Shown: one piece after another, positions 2,988 to 33,330 of the stretch
Layout: every line of letters starts with the position of its first letter
Numbering within the stretch: the first letter of the stretch is position 1
Assembly (NCBI RefSeq): GCF_029714945.1
Contig: NZ_CP121634.1
Coordinates: forward strand, 3,431,001-3,495,000
DNA length: 64,000 bases
Reading direction: 5' to 3'
Source: Bradyrhizobium sp. CIAT3101
Lineage (GTDB): Bacteria; Pseudomonadota; Alphaproteobacteria; Rhizobiales; Xanthobacteraceae
The notes under the pieces: generated by a model
The model's database searches: none
Told to the model about the DNA's origin: nothing
The model's input: the letters and a program-made list of their open reading frames with translations, nothing else
Made by a program: the position numbers and the translations under genes

Positions 2988-3772
2988 GGTCGTCGCAAAG
3001 CATATTTGCAATCGCATTGGCCGCTGTGCTCGCAACCGGACTTGCCGGTTGCAATGAGAAGCGCGATCCCGGCTTCCAGGGCTGGGTCGAAGCTGACATG
3101 ATCTATGTCAGTCCGGACGAGGCGGGCCGGGTCATCAAGCTGGACATCCGCGAAGGCGATGTCGTGAAGGTCAGCGATCCCCTGTATTCCGTCGACGACG
3201 ATCTCCAGCTCGCCGATCTCAACCAGACCAAGGCGACGCTTGCCAACGCGCAGCAGGTGTTCGATCGCGCGGATTCCCTGCGCAAGACCGGCTCGGGCAC
3301 GCAAGCCGCGCTCGATTCCGCCGTCTCCGACTTGCGGGTCGCGCAGGCGCGGGTGGTCACGTCGGAGACGCGGTTGGCGCGGCGCAAGGGTTTTGCGCCA
3401 GTCGCCGGGACCATCCAGCAGATCTATTTCCGCGAGGGCGAGATGGTCGCGGCGCAGCGGCCGGTGCTCTCGATCATGCCGCCCGGCAACATGAAGCTGC
3501 GCTTCTTCGTGCCCGAAGCGGAGTTGCCGAAATTGTCGATCGGCGACGAAGTGCGGGTCGCCTGCGACAATTGCGCGGCCGATCTCACCGCCAAGATCTA
3601 TTTCATCGCGACCTCGGCGGAATACACGCCACCGGTGATCTACAGCCTCGAGGAGCGCAACAAGCTCGTCTACCTGATCCAGGCGCGGCCCTCGCGGCCC
3701 GATGCCTTGCGGGTGGGGCAGCCGATCGACGTCTATCTCCATCCCAAGACGCCGGTGGCGGACAAGCGATGA
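2984..3772 (+). CDS. HlyD-family periplasmic adaptor lipoprotein of an ABC exporter
   Basis: A 262-residue membrane-fusion (periplasmic adaptor) protein. An N-terminal lipoprotein signal ends in the lipobox LAGC, with Cys23 as the acylation site. A biotinyl-lipoyl-like half-domain follows (GRVIKLDIREGDVVKVSDPL), then a coiled-coil hairpin (about residues 70-125), the second lipoyl half (FAPVAGTIQQIYFREGEMV) and a beta-barrel region. In YbhG/YhiI-type systems such proteins link an ABC-2 exporter to an outer-membrane channel. It overlaps the TetR gene upstream and the ATPase gene downstream by 4 bases each, which indicates tight co-translation. No outer-membrane factor gene is nearby, so a shared TolC-like channel is inferred. 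Confidence 0.9.
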   Translation: MRSSQSIFAIALAAVLATGLAGCNEKRDPGFQGWVEADMIYVSPDEAGRVIKLDIREGDVVKVSDPLYSVDDDLQLADLNQTKATLANAQQVFDRADSLRKTGSGTQAALDSAVSDLRVAQARVVTSETRLARRKGFAPVAGTIQQIYFREGEMVAAQRPVLSIMPPGNMKLRFFVPEAELPKLSIGDEVRVACDNCAADLTAKIYFIATSAEYTPPVIYSLEERNKLVYLIQARPSRPDALRVGQPIDVYLHPKTPVADKR

Positions 3773-4704
3773 ACGCGGGCAACGATATCGCGATCGACGT
3801 CAAGGGCCTGACCAAGTCGTTCGGCGGCCGCGAGGTCGTGCACGATCTGTCGATGCAGGTGAAGCGCGGCTCGATCTACGGCTTTCTCGGGCCGAACGGC
3901 TCGGGCAAGACCACGACCATCCGCATCCTCTGTGGCTTGCTCACACCCGACAGCGGCGAGGGCACCTGCCTCGGCTACGACATCCTGAAGGACGCCGACA
4001 AGATCAAGCGCCAGGTCGGCTACATGACCCAGCGCTTCAGCCTGTACCAGGACCTGTCCGTGCGCGAGAATCTCGAATTCGTCGCGCGGCTCTATGGCAT
4101 CACCGACCCGCGCGGTGCGGCGCGCGACATGATCAAGCGGCTCGGGCTTTCGGGCCGCGAGGAGCAGCTCGCCGGCGAGCTCTCCGGCGGCTGGAAGCAG
4201 CGGCTGGCGTTAGGTGCCTGCACGCTGCCGAGCCCGAAGCTGCTCTTGCTCGACGAGCCGACGGCCGGCGTCGATCCCAAGGCGCGGCGCGATTTCTGGA
4301 ACGAGATCCATGCGCTCGCGGCCGAAGGGCTCACCGTGCTGGTTTCGACCCATTACATGGACGAGGCCGAGCGCTGCCACGAGATCGCTTACATCGCCTA
4401 CGGTCATCTGCTGACGCACGGCACGGTGGAGGAGGTGATCGCGGGATCCGCACTTTCGACCTACACCGTAACGGGCGAAGATTTGAACGACCTCACGGCC
4501 GCACTCACCGGCAAGCCCGGTATCGATATGGTCGCACCGTTCGGCACATCGCTGCATGTTTCCGGGCGCGACGTTGCCGCGCTCGAGGCCAGCATCGCGC
4601 CGTGGCGCGACAACAGCGGTCTGCACTGGCAAAAATCGGTGCCCTCGCTGGAAGACGTGTTCATCGAGCTGATGGGCCGCTCCAAGGACAATTTTCAAGG
4701 ATAG
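3769..4704 (+). CDS. ABC transporter ATP-binding protein (ABC-2 drug exporter type)
   Basis: A 311-residue ATPase of the ABC-2/CcmA-like group. Walker A is at residues 41-48 (GPNGSGKT), the signature is LSGGW followed by KQRLALG, and Walker B is LLLLDEP with TAGVDPKARRDFW as the D-loop region. The switch His lies in VLVSTHYMDEAE. The C-terminal extension (about residues 225-311) is typical of YbhF/DrrA-type exporters. The first ATG overlaps the HlyD stop (ATGA). Five bases separate it from the permease gene. With the adaptor and the permease it should form a half-transporter dimer driving efflux of a hydrophobic compound; the substrate is unknown. Confidence 0.93.
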   Translation: MNAGNDIAIDVKGLTKSFGGREVVHDLSMQVKRGSIYGFLGPNGSGKTTTIRILCGLLTPDSGEGTCLGYDILKDADKIKRQVGYMTQRFSLYQDLSVRENLEFVARLYGITDPRGAARDMIKRLGLSGREEQLAGELSGGWKQRLALGACTLPSPKLLLLDEPTAGVDPKARRDFWNEIHALAAEGLTVLVSTHYMDEAERCHEIAYIAYGHLLTHGTVEEVIAGSALSTYTVTGEDLNDLTAALTGKPGIDMVAPFGTSLHVSGRDVAALEASIAPWRDNSGLHWQKSVPSLEDVFIELMGRSKDNFQG

Positions 4705-8438: not shown

Positions 8439-9683
8439 ATGTCGAACTGGTACAGTGAAAGCTCGCCGCTGGAGCGGCGCACGTTCTGGGCAAGCTTTGG
8501 CGGCTGGGCGCTGGATGCGCTCGACGTCCAGATGTTCGGCCTTGCCATCCCCGCGCTGATCGCGGCCTTCGGCATCAGCAAGGCCGATGCCGGCTTGCTC
8601 GGCTCGGTCACGTTGTTCTTCGGTGCGTTCGGCGGCTGGCTCGGTGGCGCGCTCGGCGACCGTTTTGGTCGGGTCAAGGCGCTGCAGATCACGGTTGCGA
8701 CCTTTGCGCTGGCGACGTTCGCTTCAGCCTTTGCGATGAGCTACACCCAACTCCTGGTGCTCAAGGCGATCCAGGGCCTCGGTTTCGGCGCCGAATGGGC
8801 CTGCGGCGCGGTGCTGATGGCCGAGATCATCCGGCCCGAGCATCGCGGCAAGGCGCTTGGCACGGTGCAAAGCGCCTGGGCCGTCGGTTGGGGCGCGGCC
8901 GTGCTGCTATCGGCGCTGGTCTTCACCTATGCGCCGGCTGATATCGCCTGGCGCATCCTGTTTGCGATCGGATTGTTGCCGGCGCTGCTCATCATCTTCA
9001 TCCGCCGCGGGCTGAAGGAGCCGCCGCGCGCCGTTGCCAAGGACGCAGAGATGCCGTTCCTTGCCACGCTTTCCGGCATCTTCCACCGCGACGTGCTGCG
9101 CTCGACCCTGGTCGGCGGCCTGTTCGGCATCGGTGCCCATGGCGGCTATGCCGCGTTGACGACCTTCCTGCCGACATATCTGCGCGAAGTGCGGCATTTG
9201 TCGGTGCTCGGCTCCAGCGGCTATCTCGCCGTCATCATCGTCGCCTTCTTCTGCGGCTGTGTCGCCAGCGGCATCATCAGCGACCGCATCGGGCGCCGGG
9301 CCAATGTCGCGTTGTTCGCCAGCGCATGCATCGCAACCGTGCTGGTCTACATCTTTGCGCCGCTGACCAACGGCGAAATGCTGGTGCTCAGCTTTCCGCT
9401 CGGCTTCTTCTCGGCCGGCATTCCCGCCAGCATGGCGGCGTTGTTCAGCGAGCTCTATCCCGCGGGCGTGCGCGGCACCGGCGTCGGCTTCTGCTACAAT
9501 TTCGGCCGCGTCGTCTCCGCCGCGTTTCCCTTCCTGGTCGGCTTTCTCGGCGATCGCATCGGTCTCGGGCCCGCGATCGGCATCGATGCGGCGTTTGCCT
9601 ATGCATTGGTGCTGATCGCGGTGCTGCTCCTGCCCGAGACCCGCGGCAAGGTGTTCGAGCAGGCCGTGGCGACGCGCGCCTGA
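8439..9683 (+). CDS. MFS transporter, organic/aromatic acid symporter type
   Basis: A 414-residue major facilitator with about 12 membrane segments. The loop 2-3 motif GGALGDRFGRVKALQ and its second-half counterpart SGIISDRIGRRANV are intact. The first segment carries WALDALDVQMFGLAIPAL, whose acidic residues are typical of the aromatic acid:H+ symporter and related sialate/metabolite:H+ symporter groups. A GGGTAGGA box precedes the ATG. It sits between a GntR regulator (50 bases) and a TAT-exported amidohydrolase (22 bases), so it probably imports the substrate or product of that hydrolase. The exact substrate cannot be assigned. Confidence 0.88.
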   Translation: MSNWYSESSPLERRTFWASFGGWALDALDVQMFGLAIPALIAAFGISKADAGLLGSVTLFFGAFGGWLGGALGDRFGRVKALQITVATFALATFASAFAMSYTQLLVLKAIQGLGFGAEWACGAVLMAEIIRPEHRGKALGTVQSAWAVGWGAAVLLSALVFTYAPADIAWRILFAIGLLPALLIIFIRRGLKEPPRAVAKDAEMPFLATLSGIFHRDVLRSTLVGGLFGIGAHGGYAALTTFLPTYLREVRHLSVLGSSGYLAVIIVAFFCGCVASGIISDRIGRRANVALFASACIATVLVYIFAPLTNGEMLVLSFPLGFFSAGIPASMAALFSELYPAGVRGTGVGFCYNFGRVVSAAFPFLVGFLGDRIGLGPAIGIDAAFAYALVLIAVLLLPETRGKVFEQAVATRA

Positions 9684-9705
9684 CGAAGTATGAGGAGCAG
9701 CCATC

Positions 9706-10599
9706 ATGACATTGTCTCAGCGCGGCCTGACCCGCCGCCAGTTTGGCGCGGGCCTCGCGTCGCTCGCCACCGTGGTCGCGACCACAGCCAGGAGTGAGGC
9801 GGCCTTGCCCGTTATCGACACCCACGCCCATGTCTTTCATCGCGAGCTTAAGCTCGCGCCGGGCCGGCGTTACGCGCCGGACTATGACGCGCCGCTGTCG
9901 CTCTATCTCGAGCAGCTCGACCACAACGGCATGACCAACGGCGTGCTGGTGCAGCCGAGCTTCCTGGGCACCGATAATTCCTATCTGGTCGACTGCCTGA
10001 AGCAGACCAAGGGCCGCCTGCGCGGCGTCGCTGTTGTCGATCTCGCGATCAGCGCGGACGAGTTACGCGAGCTCGATCGCGCCGGCGTGGTCGGCATTCG
10101 CCTCAATCTCGTTGGCCAGTCCTTGCCCGATCTCGCTGTGAGCGAATGGAAGGGGTTGCTTGCAAATGTGAAGGCGATGGGCTGGCAGGTCGAGATCCAG
10201 CGCAACGCCTCCGATCTCGCCGTGCTCGCGCCGCAGCTGCTCGATCTCGGCGTCACCGTCGTGCTCGATCACTACGCGCTGCCCGATCCGAAACTCGGTG
10301 TCGCCGATCCCGGCTTTCGATCGGTGCTGAAGCTTGGCGCGACGCGAAACGTGTGGGTCAAGATCTCCGCGCCGTACCGCAACGGGGCGGCGGGCGAAAG
10401 CTTTGCGAAAGAGGCTTATCCGCTGCTGCGCGACGCGTACGGCCTCGATCGCCTGTTGTGGGGCAGCGACTGGCCGCATACGCAGTTCGAGGCAACGCAG
10501 AGCTACGCGAAGAACCGGCAATTCCTCGACACGCTCATCGTCGACAAGAGCGAGCGCGCGCAAGTGCTGGCATCGCCGCGACCGCTCTTTCGTTTCTGA
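9706..10599 (+). CDS. TAT-exported amidohydrolase family protein (PDC-lactonase-like)
   Basis: A 297-residue metal-dependent hydrolase of the amidohydrolase 2 group that includes 2-pyrone-4,6-dicarboxylate lactonase and 4-sulfomuconolactone hydrolase. The N-terminus is a twin-arginine signal (TRRQFG, Arg10-Arg11, then a hydrophobic stretch), so it is probably exported folded to the periplasm. The barrel starts at VIDTHAHVFH (H40, H42). VVLDHYALPDP supplies a further histidine and LLWGSDWPHTQ the catalytic aspartate. An AGGAG box lies upstream. It follows the MFS gene by 22 bases. Together they suggest periplasmic lactone or amide hydrolysis followed by uptake. The substrate is unknown, and the TAT signal is less usual for this family. 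Confidence 0.85.
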   Translation: MTLSQRGLTRRQFGAGLASLATVVATTARSEAALPVIDTHAHVFHRELKLAPGRRYAPDYDAPLSLYLEQLDHNGMTNGVLVQPSFLGTDNSYLVDCLKQTKGRLRGVAVVDLAISADELRELDRAGVVGIRLNLVGQSLPDLAVSEWKGLLANVKAMGWQVEIQRNASDLAVLAPQLLDLGVTVVLDHYALPDPKLGVADPGFRSVLKLGATRNVWVKISAPYRNGAAGESFAKEAYPLLRDAYGLDRLLWGSDWPHTQFEATQSYAKNRQFLDTLIVDKSERAQVLASPRPLFRF

Positions 10600-28799: not shown

Positions 28800-28828
28800 T
28801 TGCAACCCGAACGTGCTTCGTTTATTAG
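28800..28828 (+). promoter_or_regulatory. Promoter of the tRNA-like array
   Basis: TTGCAA (28800-28805) and TATTAG (28823-28828) are separated by exactly 17 bases, a fair sigma-70 promoter. Transcription would begin near 28835 and give an 89-base leader before the first tRNA-like element. CCTTCG (28834-28839) can pair with CGAAGG (28913-28918), closing the leader into a separate domain. No sigma-54 (GG-N10-GC) promoter was found here. Confidence 0.5.
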
Positions 28829-28923
28829 CGCGCTCCTTCGCTAGGCCATGTGCCCGGGCTCGTTGAGATCCCGGCTGGCGCGAGCCGGTCTCCGGTTTCG
28901 TGTTCCGCCGAACGAAGGCAAAC

Positions 28924-28996
28924 GCAGGACGTAGCTCATGGAGAGCGTCGGGCTGAAAGCTCGAAGACATCGGTTCGATTCCGGTCTCTTGCACCA
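28924..28996 (+). ncRNA. tRNA-like RNA 1, Phe-type anticodon GAA, encoded CCA
   Basis: This folds as a tRNA-like cloverleaf. GCAGGA (28924-28929) pairs with TCTTGC (28987-28992), and ACCA (28993-28996) supplies the discriminator and an encoded CCA. The D arm GCTC/GAGC (28934-28946) has a loop of only five bases, ATGGA. The anticodon stem TCGGG/CTCGA (28948-28964) carries loop CTGAAAG. The T arm ATCGG/CCGGT (28969-28985) has loop TTCGATT. Odd points are the tiny D loop, three bases before the D stem, and a mismatch at the base of the acceptor stem. A functional tRNA-Phe is doubtful; it may be a tRNA mimic or a decayed gene. Confidence 0.65.
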
Positions 28997-29066
28997 AAAG
29001 GATAGCTCAGTGGTAGAGCAGATGATCTTTACTCATCGTGACGCGGGTTCGAATCCCGCTCCAGCG
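28996..29066 (+). ncRNA. tRNA-like RNA 2, anticodon TTT, broken acceptor stem
   Basis: Immediately after the CCA of element 1. The D arm GCTC/GAGC (29005-29019) has a normal AGTGGTA loop. The anticodon stem GATGA/TCATC (29021-29037) is perfect, with loop TCTTTAC: anticodon TTT, but C at position 33 instead of the near-universal T. The T arm GCGGG/CCCGC (29043-29059) has loop TTCGAAT. Only three base pairs of the acceptor stem form (GGA 29000-29002 with TCC 29060-29062), and there is no encoded CCA. Intact inner arms with a lost acceptor stem suggest a structural tRNA mimic rather than random decay; decay is the alternative. Confidence 0.6.
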
Positions 29067-29105
29067 CTCCGTTTCAGCCTGAAAAGCTGATTCCTCTGAA
29101 GGGGA

Positions 29106-29140
29106 CCGGACGCGCGCTTCAGTCGCAGTCCGGCCGTTTT
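29106..29140 (+). terminator. Terminator of the tRNA-like array
   Basis: CCGGAC (29106-29111) pairs with GTCCGG (29128-29133), followed by CCGTTTT. It ends 40 bases after tRNA-like RNA 2 and 258 bases before the slipin start codon, so the tRNA-like RNAs may form a discrete short transcript. Confidence 0.55.
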
Positions 29141-29398
29141 GCCGCAAGGCTTTCCGTCCGAACTTAGACACTGTGAGACCGGCTTCGCGCCGCGGTAGAT
29201 ACCGCTTGCGCTGATGCCGGGTGGCTCCGCACGGCCGCGCGACAGATGTCGCGCGATCGCGCGCGTGCGCCCGTCATCGTGCAAGCTCAAGCCACGGCCC
29301 GCCGATCTCTGCAGGAAGCGTCGTCCGCGTCCTCACGTCCTTTGCAAACGAAAACTGTCCGTCCGGCATCCCGCCGGGCGCAACGAAGGAGGCGTGTC
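29141..29398 (+). other. Leader region between the tRNA-like array and the slipin gene
   Basis: About 258 bases without a supported gene. The slipin frame is open through part of it but codon use and the AAGGAGG box at 29386-29392 place the start at 29399. I see no strong promoter; a weak TTGCCG/ACTTAG pair begins near 29139. Confidence 0.4.
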
Positions 29399-30550
29399 AT
29401 GACCTGGCATTTGCTGACGACCACTGTCACCGTCAAGGACGGTGAGCGCGCGCTACTCACGCGAAACGGCCAGCTCGAGCGGGTGCTCGCGCCTGGTCGG
29501 CATCGTCTGATCGATTGGCGCAACGAGCTGACGGCCACCGTGTACAACGTCGTGGGAACTGAATTCCCCACGGATCGTTACGCGGTGCTGAAGGCCGCGC
29601 GTCCCGATCTTGCCGCCGAACTGTTCGAGGCGGTCGAGACGCGGGCTGACGAGATCGCCATCGTCAGCCTCGACGGCCGGCCCGTGCATCTGATGACGCC
29701 CTGGCAGGTGCGCGTCTACTGGAAGGTTGCGACCCGCATCGATGTCGAGCGCATCGATGTGTCCAGCGATCCCAAGATCGACGCGCGCCACCTGAGCATG
29801 ATCGAGCGCAACCGTTCGGCCGTGTCGTCCGAGACGGTGGTCGAGAACCACGAGGCGGGCCTGCTCTACGTCGAGGGCCGGCTCGTCGAGCGGCTCGCGC
29901 CTGGCCGGCACGCGTTCTGGACCGTCGGCCGCAAGATCGAGGTGAAGCGCCTCGACCTGCGGCCCCAGGCGGTCGAGATCACCGCGCAGGAGATGCTGAC
30001 CAAGGATCGCATCGCGCTGCGGGTGACGCTGACGGCGTTCCGCCGGGTGGTCGATCCCGAGCGCACGGTGGCGACCGTGCCCGACGTGGATGCGTGGCTG
30101 TACCGCCTGGTGCAGTTCGCGATCCGCGAGGCGGTTGCGGGCCGGACGCTGGACGAGGTGCTGTCTGCGAAGGCGGCGCTGGATGCGGAGCTGCGCGACT
30201 ACGTGCGTGCACGCGTCGCGGAGTCCGGTGTCGAGGTCACCGAGCTCGGCGTCAAGGATGTGATCCTGCCCGGCGAGATCCGGGAGCTGGTGAACAAGGT
30301 GGTGGAGGCGGAGCGGGTCGCGAAGGCGAACCTGATCCGCCGGCAGGAGGAGACCGCGGCAACGCGTTCGCTCCTGAACACCGCCCGCCTGATGGAGGAG
30401 AACCCCCTGCTGCTTCGGCTCAAGGAGCTGGAGTCGCTGGAGCGACTGGTCGAGAAGGTCGGCCGCATCGATCTCCACGCCGGCAACGGCGAGGGCCTCG
30501 ATGCCCTCCTGACCCGGCTCGTACGCCTGAAGGCGCCCGAGACTGCATAG
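29399..30550 (+). CDS. Slipin family (SPFH/band-7) protein, double-domain form
   Basis: A 383-residue slipin-like protein. The N-terminal half (about residues 1-160) is a beta-rich module with DGERALLTRNGQLERVLAPG; the same pattern recurs at NHEAGLLYVEGRLVERLAPG (about 160-180), so the chain has a duplicated leader followed by the SPFH core (VEITAQEMLTKDRIALRV, EVTELGVKDVILPGEIRELV). A coiled-coil tail (VVEAERVAKANLIRRQEE, then LLLRLKELESLERLVEKVGR) ends it. No membrane helix is evident, unlike most slipins. From memory, this form commonly accompanies RtcB/Ro/RtcR RNA-repair genes, but none is in this window. Two tRNA-like RNAs lie upstream. An AAGGAGG box fixes the start. Confidence 0.85.
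   Translation: MTWHLLTTTVTVKDGERALLTRNGQLERVLAPGRHRLIDWRNELTATVYNVVGTEFPTDRYAVLKAARPDLAAELFEAVETRADEIAIVSLDGRPVHLMTPWQVRVYWKVATRIDVERIDVSSDPKIDARHLSMIERNRSAVSSETVVENHEAGLLYVEGRLVERLAPGRHAFWTVGRKIEVKRLDLRPQAVEITAQEMLTKDRIALRVTLTAFRRVVDPERTVATVPDVDAWLYRLVQFAIREAVAGRTLDEVLSAKAALDAELRDYVRARVAESGVEVTELGVKDVILPGEIRELVNKVVEAERVAKANLIRRQEETAATRSLLNTARLMEENPLLLRLKELESLERLVEKVGRIDLHAGNGEGLDALLTRLVRLKAPETA

Positions 30551-31641: not shown

Positions 31642-33330
<1,689 letters not shown>

Follow-up and report, generated by a model that had tools for sequence, protein, structure and literature searches.

Upstream of a slipin gene in a Bradyrhizobium genome, two adjacent sequences fold like tRNAs, and the question arises whether they decode, have decayed from something that did, or belong to an RNA with a different task. 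The locus was analysed within a stretch of 64,000 nucleotides (the window), which is part of a 9.37-Mb genome labelled G000 in our comparisons. At its own cut-offs, Rfam 15 yields two tRNA matches and nothing else in the window, with 41.9 and 50.2 bits both exceeding the cut-off of 29; the second match spans 29000-29062. ARAGORN calls the first unit tRNA-Phe(gaa) with an encoded CCA. The two tRNA-type folds of the preliminary description are thus recovered by ARAGORN and the Rfam tRNA model. A tmRNA is not part of the picture, as there was no covariance match in the window at the Rfam gathering cut-off and ARAGORN lists none. The features discussed below are collected in Table 1.

Table 1 Features of the slipin locus, in coordinates of the window.
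Feature	Position	Strand	Basis
Sigma70-type promoter: TTGCAA (28800-28805), 17-base spacer, TATTAG (28823-28828)	28800..28828	+	Read in the sequence
5' domain	28834..28922	+	Alignment A3 of 42 sequences; match to covariance model R1
TL1, first tRNA-like domain, encoded ACCA	28924..28996	+	ARAGORN; Rfam tRNA, 41.9 bits
TL2, second tRNA-like domain, acceptor stem of 3 pairs, lacking CCA	28996..29066	+	Rfam tRNA
3' domain	29102..29334	+	P5 strand-pairing test; GATACCG motif
Local hairpin followed by TTTT	29106..29140	+	Hairpin kept in loci of type A; no conservation of the T-run
Slipin (383 aa), an SPFH/Band-7 protein whose SPFH1-type leader is duplicated	29399..30550	+	Pfam Band_7

Our comparisons place the two folds in the middle of something larger: positions 28834 to 29335 are predicted to be a single structured noncoding RNA. 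It begins with a covarying 5' domain, continues with the two tRNA-like folds and ends in a 3' domain that a long-range stem closes; it is located between a sigma70-type promoter and the slipin gene. The earlier proposal of two free-standing RNAs ending at 29140 was not supported, the conserved structure extending from about position 28834 to about 29335. Scanning with a profile of slipin returned 343 relatives, of which the best 80, mostly from Bradyrhizobium and its allies, were taken forward; among these best 80 of 343, the closest named loci belong to Bradyrhizobium. Together with the window's own leader they make up the 81 leaders referred to below. The 5' motif and the tRNA-like D and T arms were present in all 80 of these best-scoring loci and the 3' motif in 79, whereby the D and T motifs were the search patterns themselves, so that their constancy is partly built in. 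A motif near GTGTTCCGC lies about 450-670 bases 5' of the slipin start codon in each of the 80 loci. Note that the 9-base 5' motif was sought with one mismatch allowed, such that a chance match is possible within 900 bases of some loci; its weight therefore derives from the constant position and from the covariance model R1.

The 5' domain is closed by the stem CCTTCG/CGAAGG (28835-28840/28913-28918) and comprises the hairpin CCGGGCTC..GAGATCCCGG and a bulged helix, GG-CGCG/CGTG-TT-CC, similar forms of which occur in other classes. In the 42 sequences of alignment A3, 91.8% of the cells are paired and 17 of the 26 pairs are changed on both sides in some sequence. None of 500 shuffles gave pairing or covariation as high, and sliding the partners halved the pairing. 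R1, built from this alignment, matches the window at 28830-28922 with 99.9 bits. When run on 41 sources, it detected the 5' domain in 31 with E-values of 6e-8 or better, and its matches outside the training set include L010 (2e-11), L143 (8e-9) and L012 (6e-8). Ten sources remained without a match: L013 and L014, which hold truncated slipin remnants from two Bradyrhizobium genomes; L052, where the leader is lost at a contig end; and seven distant leaders (L137-L142 and L144). In L013, a promoter-like TTGCAAC is found about 20 bases 5' of the matched slipin remnant. The preliminary description had proposed looking for arms conserved upstream of slipin orthologues, and these were found, with compensatory changes in the 5' domain, in the closing stem P5 of the 3' domain and in the T arm of TL1.

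RNA and slipin also occur together. In a family sample of 149 genomes including G000, for which the RNA searches used stricter filters than the R1 run on loci and limited scoring to 28 first-look candidates per genome, R1 matches of at least 78 bits were obtained in seven genomes, and the same seven encode a full-length slipin. There, the slipin gene lies downstream of the RNA on the same strand at a distance of 0.42-0.51 kb. The sample also contains one genome with a weak R1 match (27.7 bits) and no slipin (G276) and one with a slipin fragment and no RNA (G280). Full-length slipin is encoded in 8 of 24 same-genus relatives. In each of these eight, the Rfam tRNA model matches 5' of the gene, twice except in L005, where there is a single match. 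Slipin remnants in two of the 24 are accompanied by matches to neither R1 nor the tRNA model. These comparisons show that the predicted RNA architecture is conserved and coupled to this slipin subfamily.

The slipin itself matches Pfam Band_7 with 112 bits (cut-off 23.6), and its predicted structure (pLDDT 83, pTM 0.58) yielded fold matches. Classical slipins and stomatins possess an N-terminal membrane segment. The window's protein differs in this respect: with a highest 19-residue hydropathy of 0.93 it has no obvious membrane span. Nor does its pI of 6.5 suggest an obvious basic RNA-binding surface. Between G000 and other genomes without RtcB, the dN/dS of slipin is 0.12 (G022), 0.18 (G005) and 0.21 (G271), which indicates purifying selection. 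The number of leader domains varies among slipin relatives, an example being a protein of 526 aa with an extra leader repeat (L052, 428-2008).

What could such a pair do? We lean, with some reserve, towards a reading by analogy in which the RNA is the leader or a processed product of the slipin transcript and acts as a cofactor of a soluble SPFH ring. Transcribed from the sigma70-type promoter, the RNA would either remain the leader of the slipin transcript or be processed from it. A soluble SPFH ring or cage would bind the 5' domain at its bulged helix, and a tRNA-handling enzyme would dock on the tRNA-elbow mimics, that is the D and T arms. Where present, this could be RtcB or a nucleotidyltransferase, while in G000 it might be PNPase or a tRNA-processing enzyme. 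The ring would then keep damaged tRNA, or another structured RNA, ready to be repaired or degraded, modelled on the action of Y RNA with Rsr and PNPase as outlined in the available parts of two accounts (PMC8394870, PMC7790460). The RNA-slipin module of the Bradyrhizobium lineage studied here would persist without RtcB, RtcA, RtcR and a sigma54-type promoter. Several observations count against the cofactor model, namely leaders in E. coli and Citrobacter without a recognised tRNA fold, the seven distant leaders missed by R1, the slipin pI of 6.5 and the lack of effect in the part seen of a report on deletion of PaFlo8, the orthology of which is an assumption (PMC13086221).

The main rival, which we regard as rather unlikely, has the RNA act in cis: the tRNA-like parts would bind a tRNA-binding protein (RtcB, RNase P, a modification enzyme and slipin itself are candidates), and slipin expression would be set by which of the two forms, the local hairpin or P5. 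This fits with the position of the RNA ahead of slipin in 80 of 80 loci and with the absence of any strong copy away from slipin in the 149 family genomes. There is precedent in tRNA-like mRNA operators, for which thrS is named in the portion consulted of PMC8394870. The hairpin and P5 (29102-29117 paired with 29318-29334), which closes the 3' domain, share the 5' strand of P5 and exclude each other, which also favours this reading. P5 occurs in two sequence types, CCGGACGCG/CGCGTCCGG and GCCGGCYGC/GCRGCCGGC or near. In 24 loci, matched strands pair with a mean of -25.7 kcal/mol as compared with -15.4 kcal/mol when partners are taken from the other type and -14.5 kcal/mol (sd 3.7) in the shuffled control; for 11 loci of the other type, the corresponding values are -25.5, -13.8 and -12.7 kcal/mol, the test having missed L104, L120 and L122 and kept L108 in spite of mis-anchoring. 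The second landmark of the 3' domain, GATACCG (29198-29204 in the window), is present as such or as a close variant in 80 of the 81 leaders, L091 having GATGCCG. The local hairpin fares less well, and it is here that the cis-acting leader loses ground: in type-B loci local pairing is weak, the mean of -12.3 kcal/mol being about that of the shuffled P5 control (-12.7 kcal/mol), and the T-run is not conserved. Moreover, the conserved parts, which include the closing stem, the pair of tRNA mimics and more than 200 nt of 3' domain, go beyond what a switch usually needs. The hairpin with TTTT, previously described as a terminator, was rejected as an intrinsic terminator that ends the RNA at 29140: it competes with the conserved long-range stem P5 and its T-run is not kept.

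The claim that the tRNA mimic has its own promoter is supported: the sigma70-type match recurs across the 81 leaders at scores above those of shuffles (mean 8.0 versus 6.9, sd 0.9). For the best match in each leader, the spacer is 17 bases long in 66 of the 81, the -10 element is TATTAG in 41, and the match ends 5-6 bases 5' of the anchored RNA start in 50. A sigma54-like site was detected in none of the 81 leaders of the window's group, as opposed to 6 of 14 distant leaders; of 2800 shuffled windows, 54 contained one.

As to the tRNA-like domains, the pattern search recognised two units in 73 of the 81 leaders and one in the remaining eight; in some of these eight, a second unit is present in degenerate form. 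In the T arm of TL1, 318 of 325 cells are paired against a mean of 275 with shuffled partners, and 29 cells are changed on both sides; the inner two pairs are fixed by the pattern, so that the outer T-arm pairs alone are unbiased, and the anticodon arms in this test were selected by best pairing. The anticodon loops behave differently. That of TL1 ranges from 4 to 8 nt; of 76 units, no more than 24 have the 7-nt form, and 10 have a GNRA tetraloop. That of TL2, although 7 nt long in 68 of 78 units, carries 17 different anticodons, with U33 present in 55 of the 68 seven-base loops and missing in 13. A fixed anticodon in a constant 7-nt loop was found among the orthologues of neither TL1 nor TL2. 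Selection thus appears to keep the elbow formed by D and T arms rather than the anticodon. Since the anticodon loops vary while the D and T arms are kept, we take TL1 and TL2 to be tRNA-elbow mimics, not decoders.

This variation also bears on the idea that the tRNA mimics are decoys which soak up a tRNA nuclease or modifying enzyme and thereby spare real tRNAs, with slipin anchoring the decoy. We consider it improbable, even though the T arms are kept with compensatory changes. Anticodon loops that differ in size and sequence between orthologues make an anticodon-directed enzyme unlikely, and the neighbours examined in the window, a LysR-type regulator and a signal peptidase, offer no support either. 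A known anti-phage protein was considered and set aside, as a PADLOC search with three proteins remained without a match. The preliminary description had suggested a tRNA bait: the slipin-linked mimic is retained, but bait for anticodon cleavage is disfavoured by the differing loops, with the counterpoint that 7-nt TL1 loops mostly read GAA (20 of 24). The same GAA preference, together with the tRNA-Phe(gaa) call and the encoded CCA, is what speaks for working or minor decoding tRNAs placed upstream of slipin by chance; we hold this to be very improbable, given the 17 TL2 anticodons, the inconstant TL1 loop size, the 13 TL2 loops without U33 and the embedding of both units in a larger conserved RNA, and candidacy as decoding tRNAs was rejected on these grounds. 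Decayed tRNA genes or chance cloverleaves would agree with tRNA scores among the four lowest of 52 matches in the genome and with folding z-scores near -0.75, yet this alternative, raised at the outset, is practically eliminated by conservation: the arrangement is shared by the 80 loci and recurs in other families and classes, with compensatory changes. Plain tRNA copies without slipin were also sought elsewhere in the genome, where the tandem resembles one ordinary tRNA only, with 79% identity over 51 bases.

The link to RNA-repair operons drawn in the preliminary description is supported: relatives in other classes adjoin rtcR, rtcB or rtcA. Searching by protein alone revealed eight relatives with the same layout among 150 genomes of the phylum, two from the window's order and six from other classes. 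Rfam tRNA folds precede slipin in seven of them and are lacking in L144. In the six loci from other classes, one to three of Pfam RtcR, RtcB and RtcA are found near the pair, with all three in L165. The absence of rtcB, rtcA and rtcR noted for the window extends to the whole genome, as does that of Ro60: genome searches of G000 gave no match for rtcB, rtcA and rtcR or for Ro60/Rsr (TROVE). RtcB is encoded in two of the seven family genomes that carry the module and lies within the examined flanks in 14 of the 80 loci. As far as can be judged from these searches, the module is an orphan in G000, without RtcB, RtcA, RtcR and a sigma54-type promoter. In L046, as in some Bradyrhizobium loci, two RtcB-family genes surround slipin (3290-4336 and 8800-10185), the second of which is divergent and falls below the cut-offs of the NCBI RtcB models. 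In L162, an open reading frame at about 9860-10597, HNH-endonuclease-like by eye, is situated 5' of the RNA-slipin pair.

The pair also extends to enterobacteria in what we interpret from sequence as a reduced form of the leader in E. coli. At least 80% of a leader-plus-slipin query is present in 1621 of 5426 complete E. coli genomes; in E. coli C2, a slipin-nucleotidyltransferase pair resides between yjbD and lysC. In Citrobacter, rtcR adjoins the leader and a nucleotidyltransferase gene follows 3' of slipin. Four loci from a plasmid collection were examined, and in those from E. coli, Citrobacter and Subdoligranulum only T arms were found 5' of slipin, while ARAGORN recognised one tRNA fold in the Burkholderia locus. 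Neither Rfam nor ARAGORN detected a tRNA fold in the E. coli and Citrobacter leaders with their T arm. The bulged helix was matched by pattern in E. coli and in the Bacillota locus; in Citrobacter it was seen by eye only and is absent from the predicted fold. In the E. coli C2 locus (L176, 4105-6991), a zeta-toxin-family gene lies behind slipin and nucleotidyltransferase on the opposite strand. The stretch shown for this locus contains no rtcR, although its leader, which is also that of L172, is preceded by a sigma54-like site.

Burroughs and Aravind reportedly proposed in 2016 a novel 'tRNA-like molecule' linked to Band-7 genes in RNA-repair systems. The window resembles that pair in having a Band-7 gene downstream of a tRNA-like RNA, with relatives in RtcB systems; what would set it apart are the covarying 5' domain and the more than 200 nt of 3' domain besides the tRNA-like units, the lack of RtcB, RtcA and RtcR, and the sigma70-type promoter. 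The 5' and 3' domains and the orphan state with a different promoter may be additions to what is known, as may the forms reduced to T arms and the wide occurrence in E. coli. Among the titles and abstract openings listed by a literature search, none showed an account of a slipin- or Band-7-linked tRNA-like RNA, although one may exist. From an RtcR-type RNA-repair operon, the window is set apart by the lack of rtcB, rtcA, rtcR and a sigma54 promoter.

A second comparison is with YrlA, a Y RNA. According to the sections consulted of PMC7790460 and PMC8394870, this noncoding RNA contains a tRNA-elbow mimic, is encoded with the ring protein Rsr/Ro60 and, in some bacteria, occurs with Rsr in rtc operons. 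The likeness to YrlA, Rsr/Ro60 and PNPase (RYPER) thus lies in an elbow-mimicking RNA encoded with a ring protein. Membership in YrlA was nevertheless rejected: the window scores 25.8 bits with the Rfam model RF02553 and the best relative, L010, 38.9 bits, both below the gathering cut-off of 69, and G000 has no linked TROVE gene. The protein is SPFH, not TROVE, and the tRNA domains are in normal order, whereas those of YrlA are permuted. The exception is L010, where a permuted YrlA-like domain is followed by a complete tRNA-like unit (2998-3150). A T arm, a hairpin and a D arm are all that its first unit contains, in the permuted order of YrlA; L010 may represent a stage between tandem tRNA mimics and Y RNA.

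Two further SPFH genes invite comparison. PaFlo8 of P. aeruginosa PA14 is embedded with rtcA, rtcB and rtcR, unlike the slipin of the window's genome, and in the part of that report available its deletion had no effect on pyocyanin, swimming, biofilm or oxidative stress; 'tRNA' is absent from the main text (PMC13086221). The Anabaena slipin alr0740 resembles the window's in being a slipin that belongs, in the passage seen of PMC10272220, to a translation-stress regulon, that of TrcR, with rtcB and a tRNA array.

Among the closest known systems we also list the eukaryotic vault, composed of major vault protein (MVP) and vault RNA, the kinship of slipin to MVP being an analogy only. We offer as a speculation that probably will not hold that these pairs represent a bacterial family of vault-like ribonucleoproteins, in which a soluble MVP-like SPFH cage with a dedicated tRNA-mimic RNA of about 500 nt would be older than its use in RtcB operons and serve as a general particle for tRNA quality control; orphans would use ordinary tRNA enzymes, and YrlA could have arisen from the junction of the tandem mimics, with L010 as the intermediate. 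To our knowledge, few cargoes of bacterial SPFH rings have been described. Were the cofactor reading true, a dedicated, tRNA-imitating RNA partner inherited with one SPFH subfamily would give SPFH proteins a testable molecular task. It would also point to RNA-repair operons, at least some, in which the core of RNA and protein can function on its own, with the repair enzymes missing. Because some E. coli genomes carry leader and slipin, the leader being reduced, study in a model species should be possible. Finally, a gene named GroEL-like by eye (31642-33282 of the window) follows closely 3' of slipin, and relatives of it are also found near slipin in Rhodoplanes and other genera.
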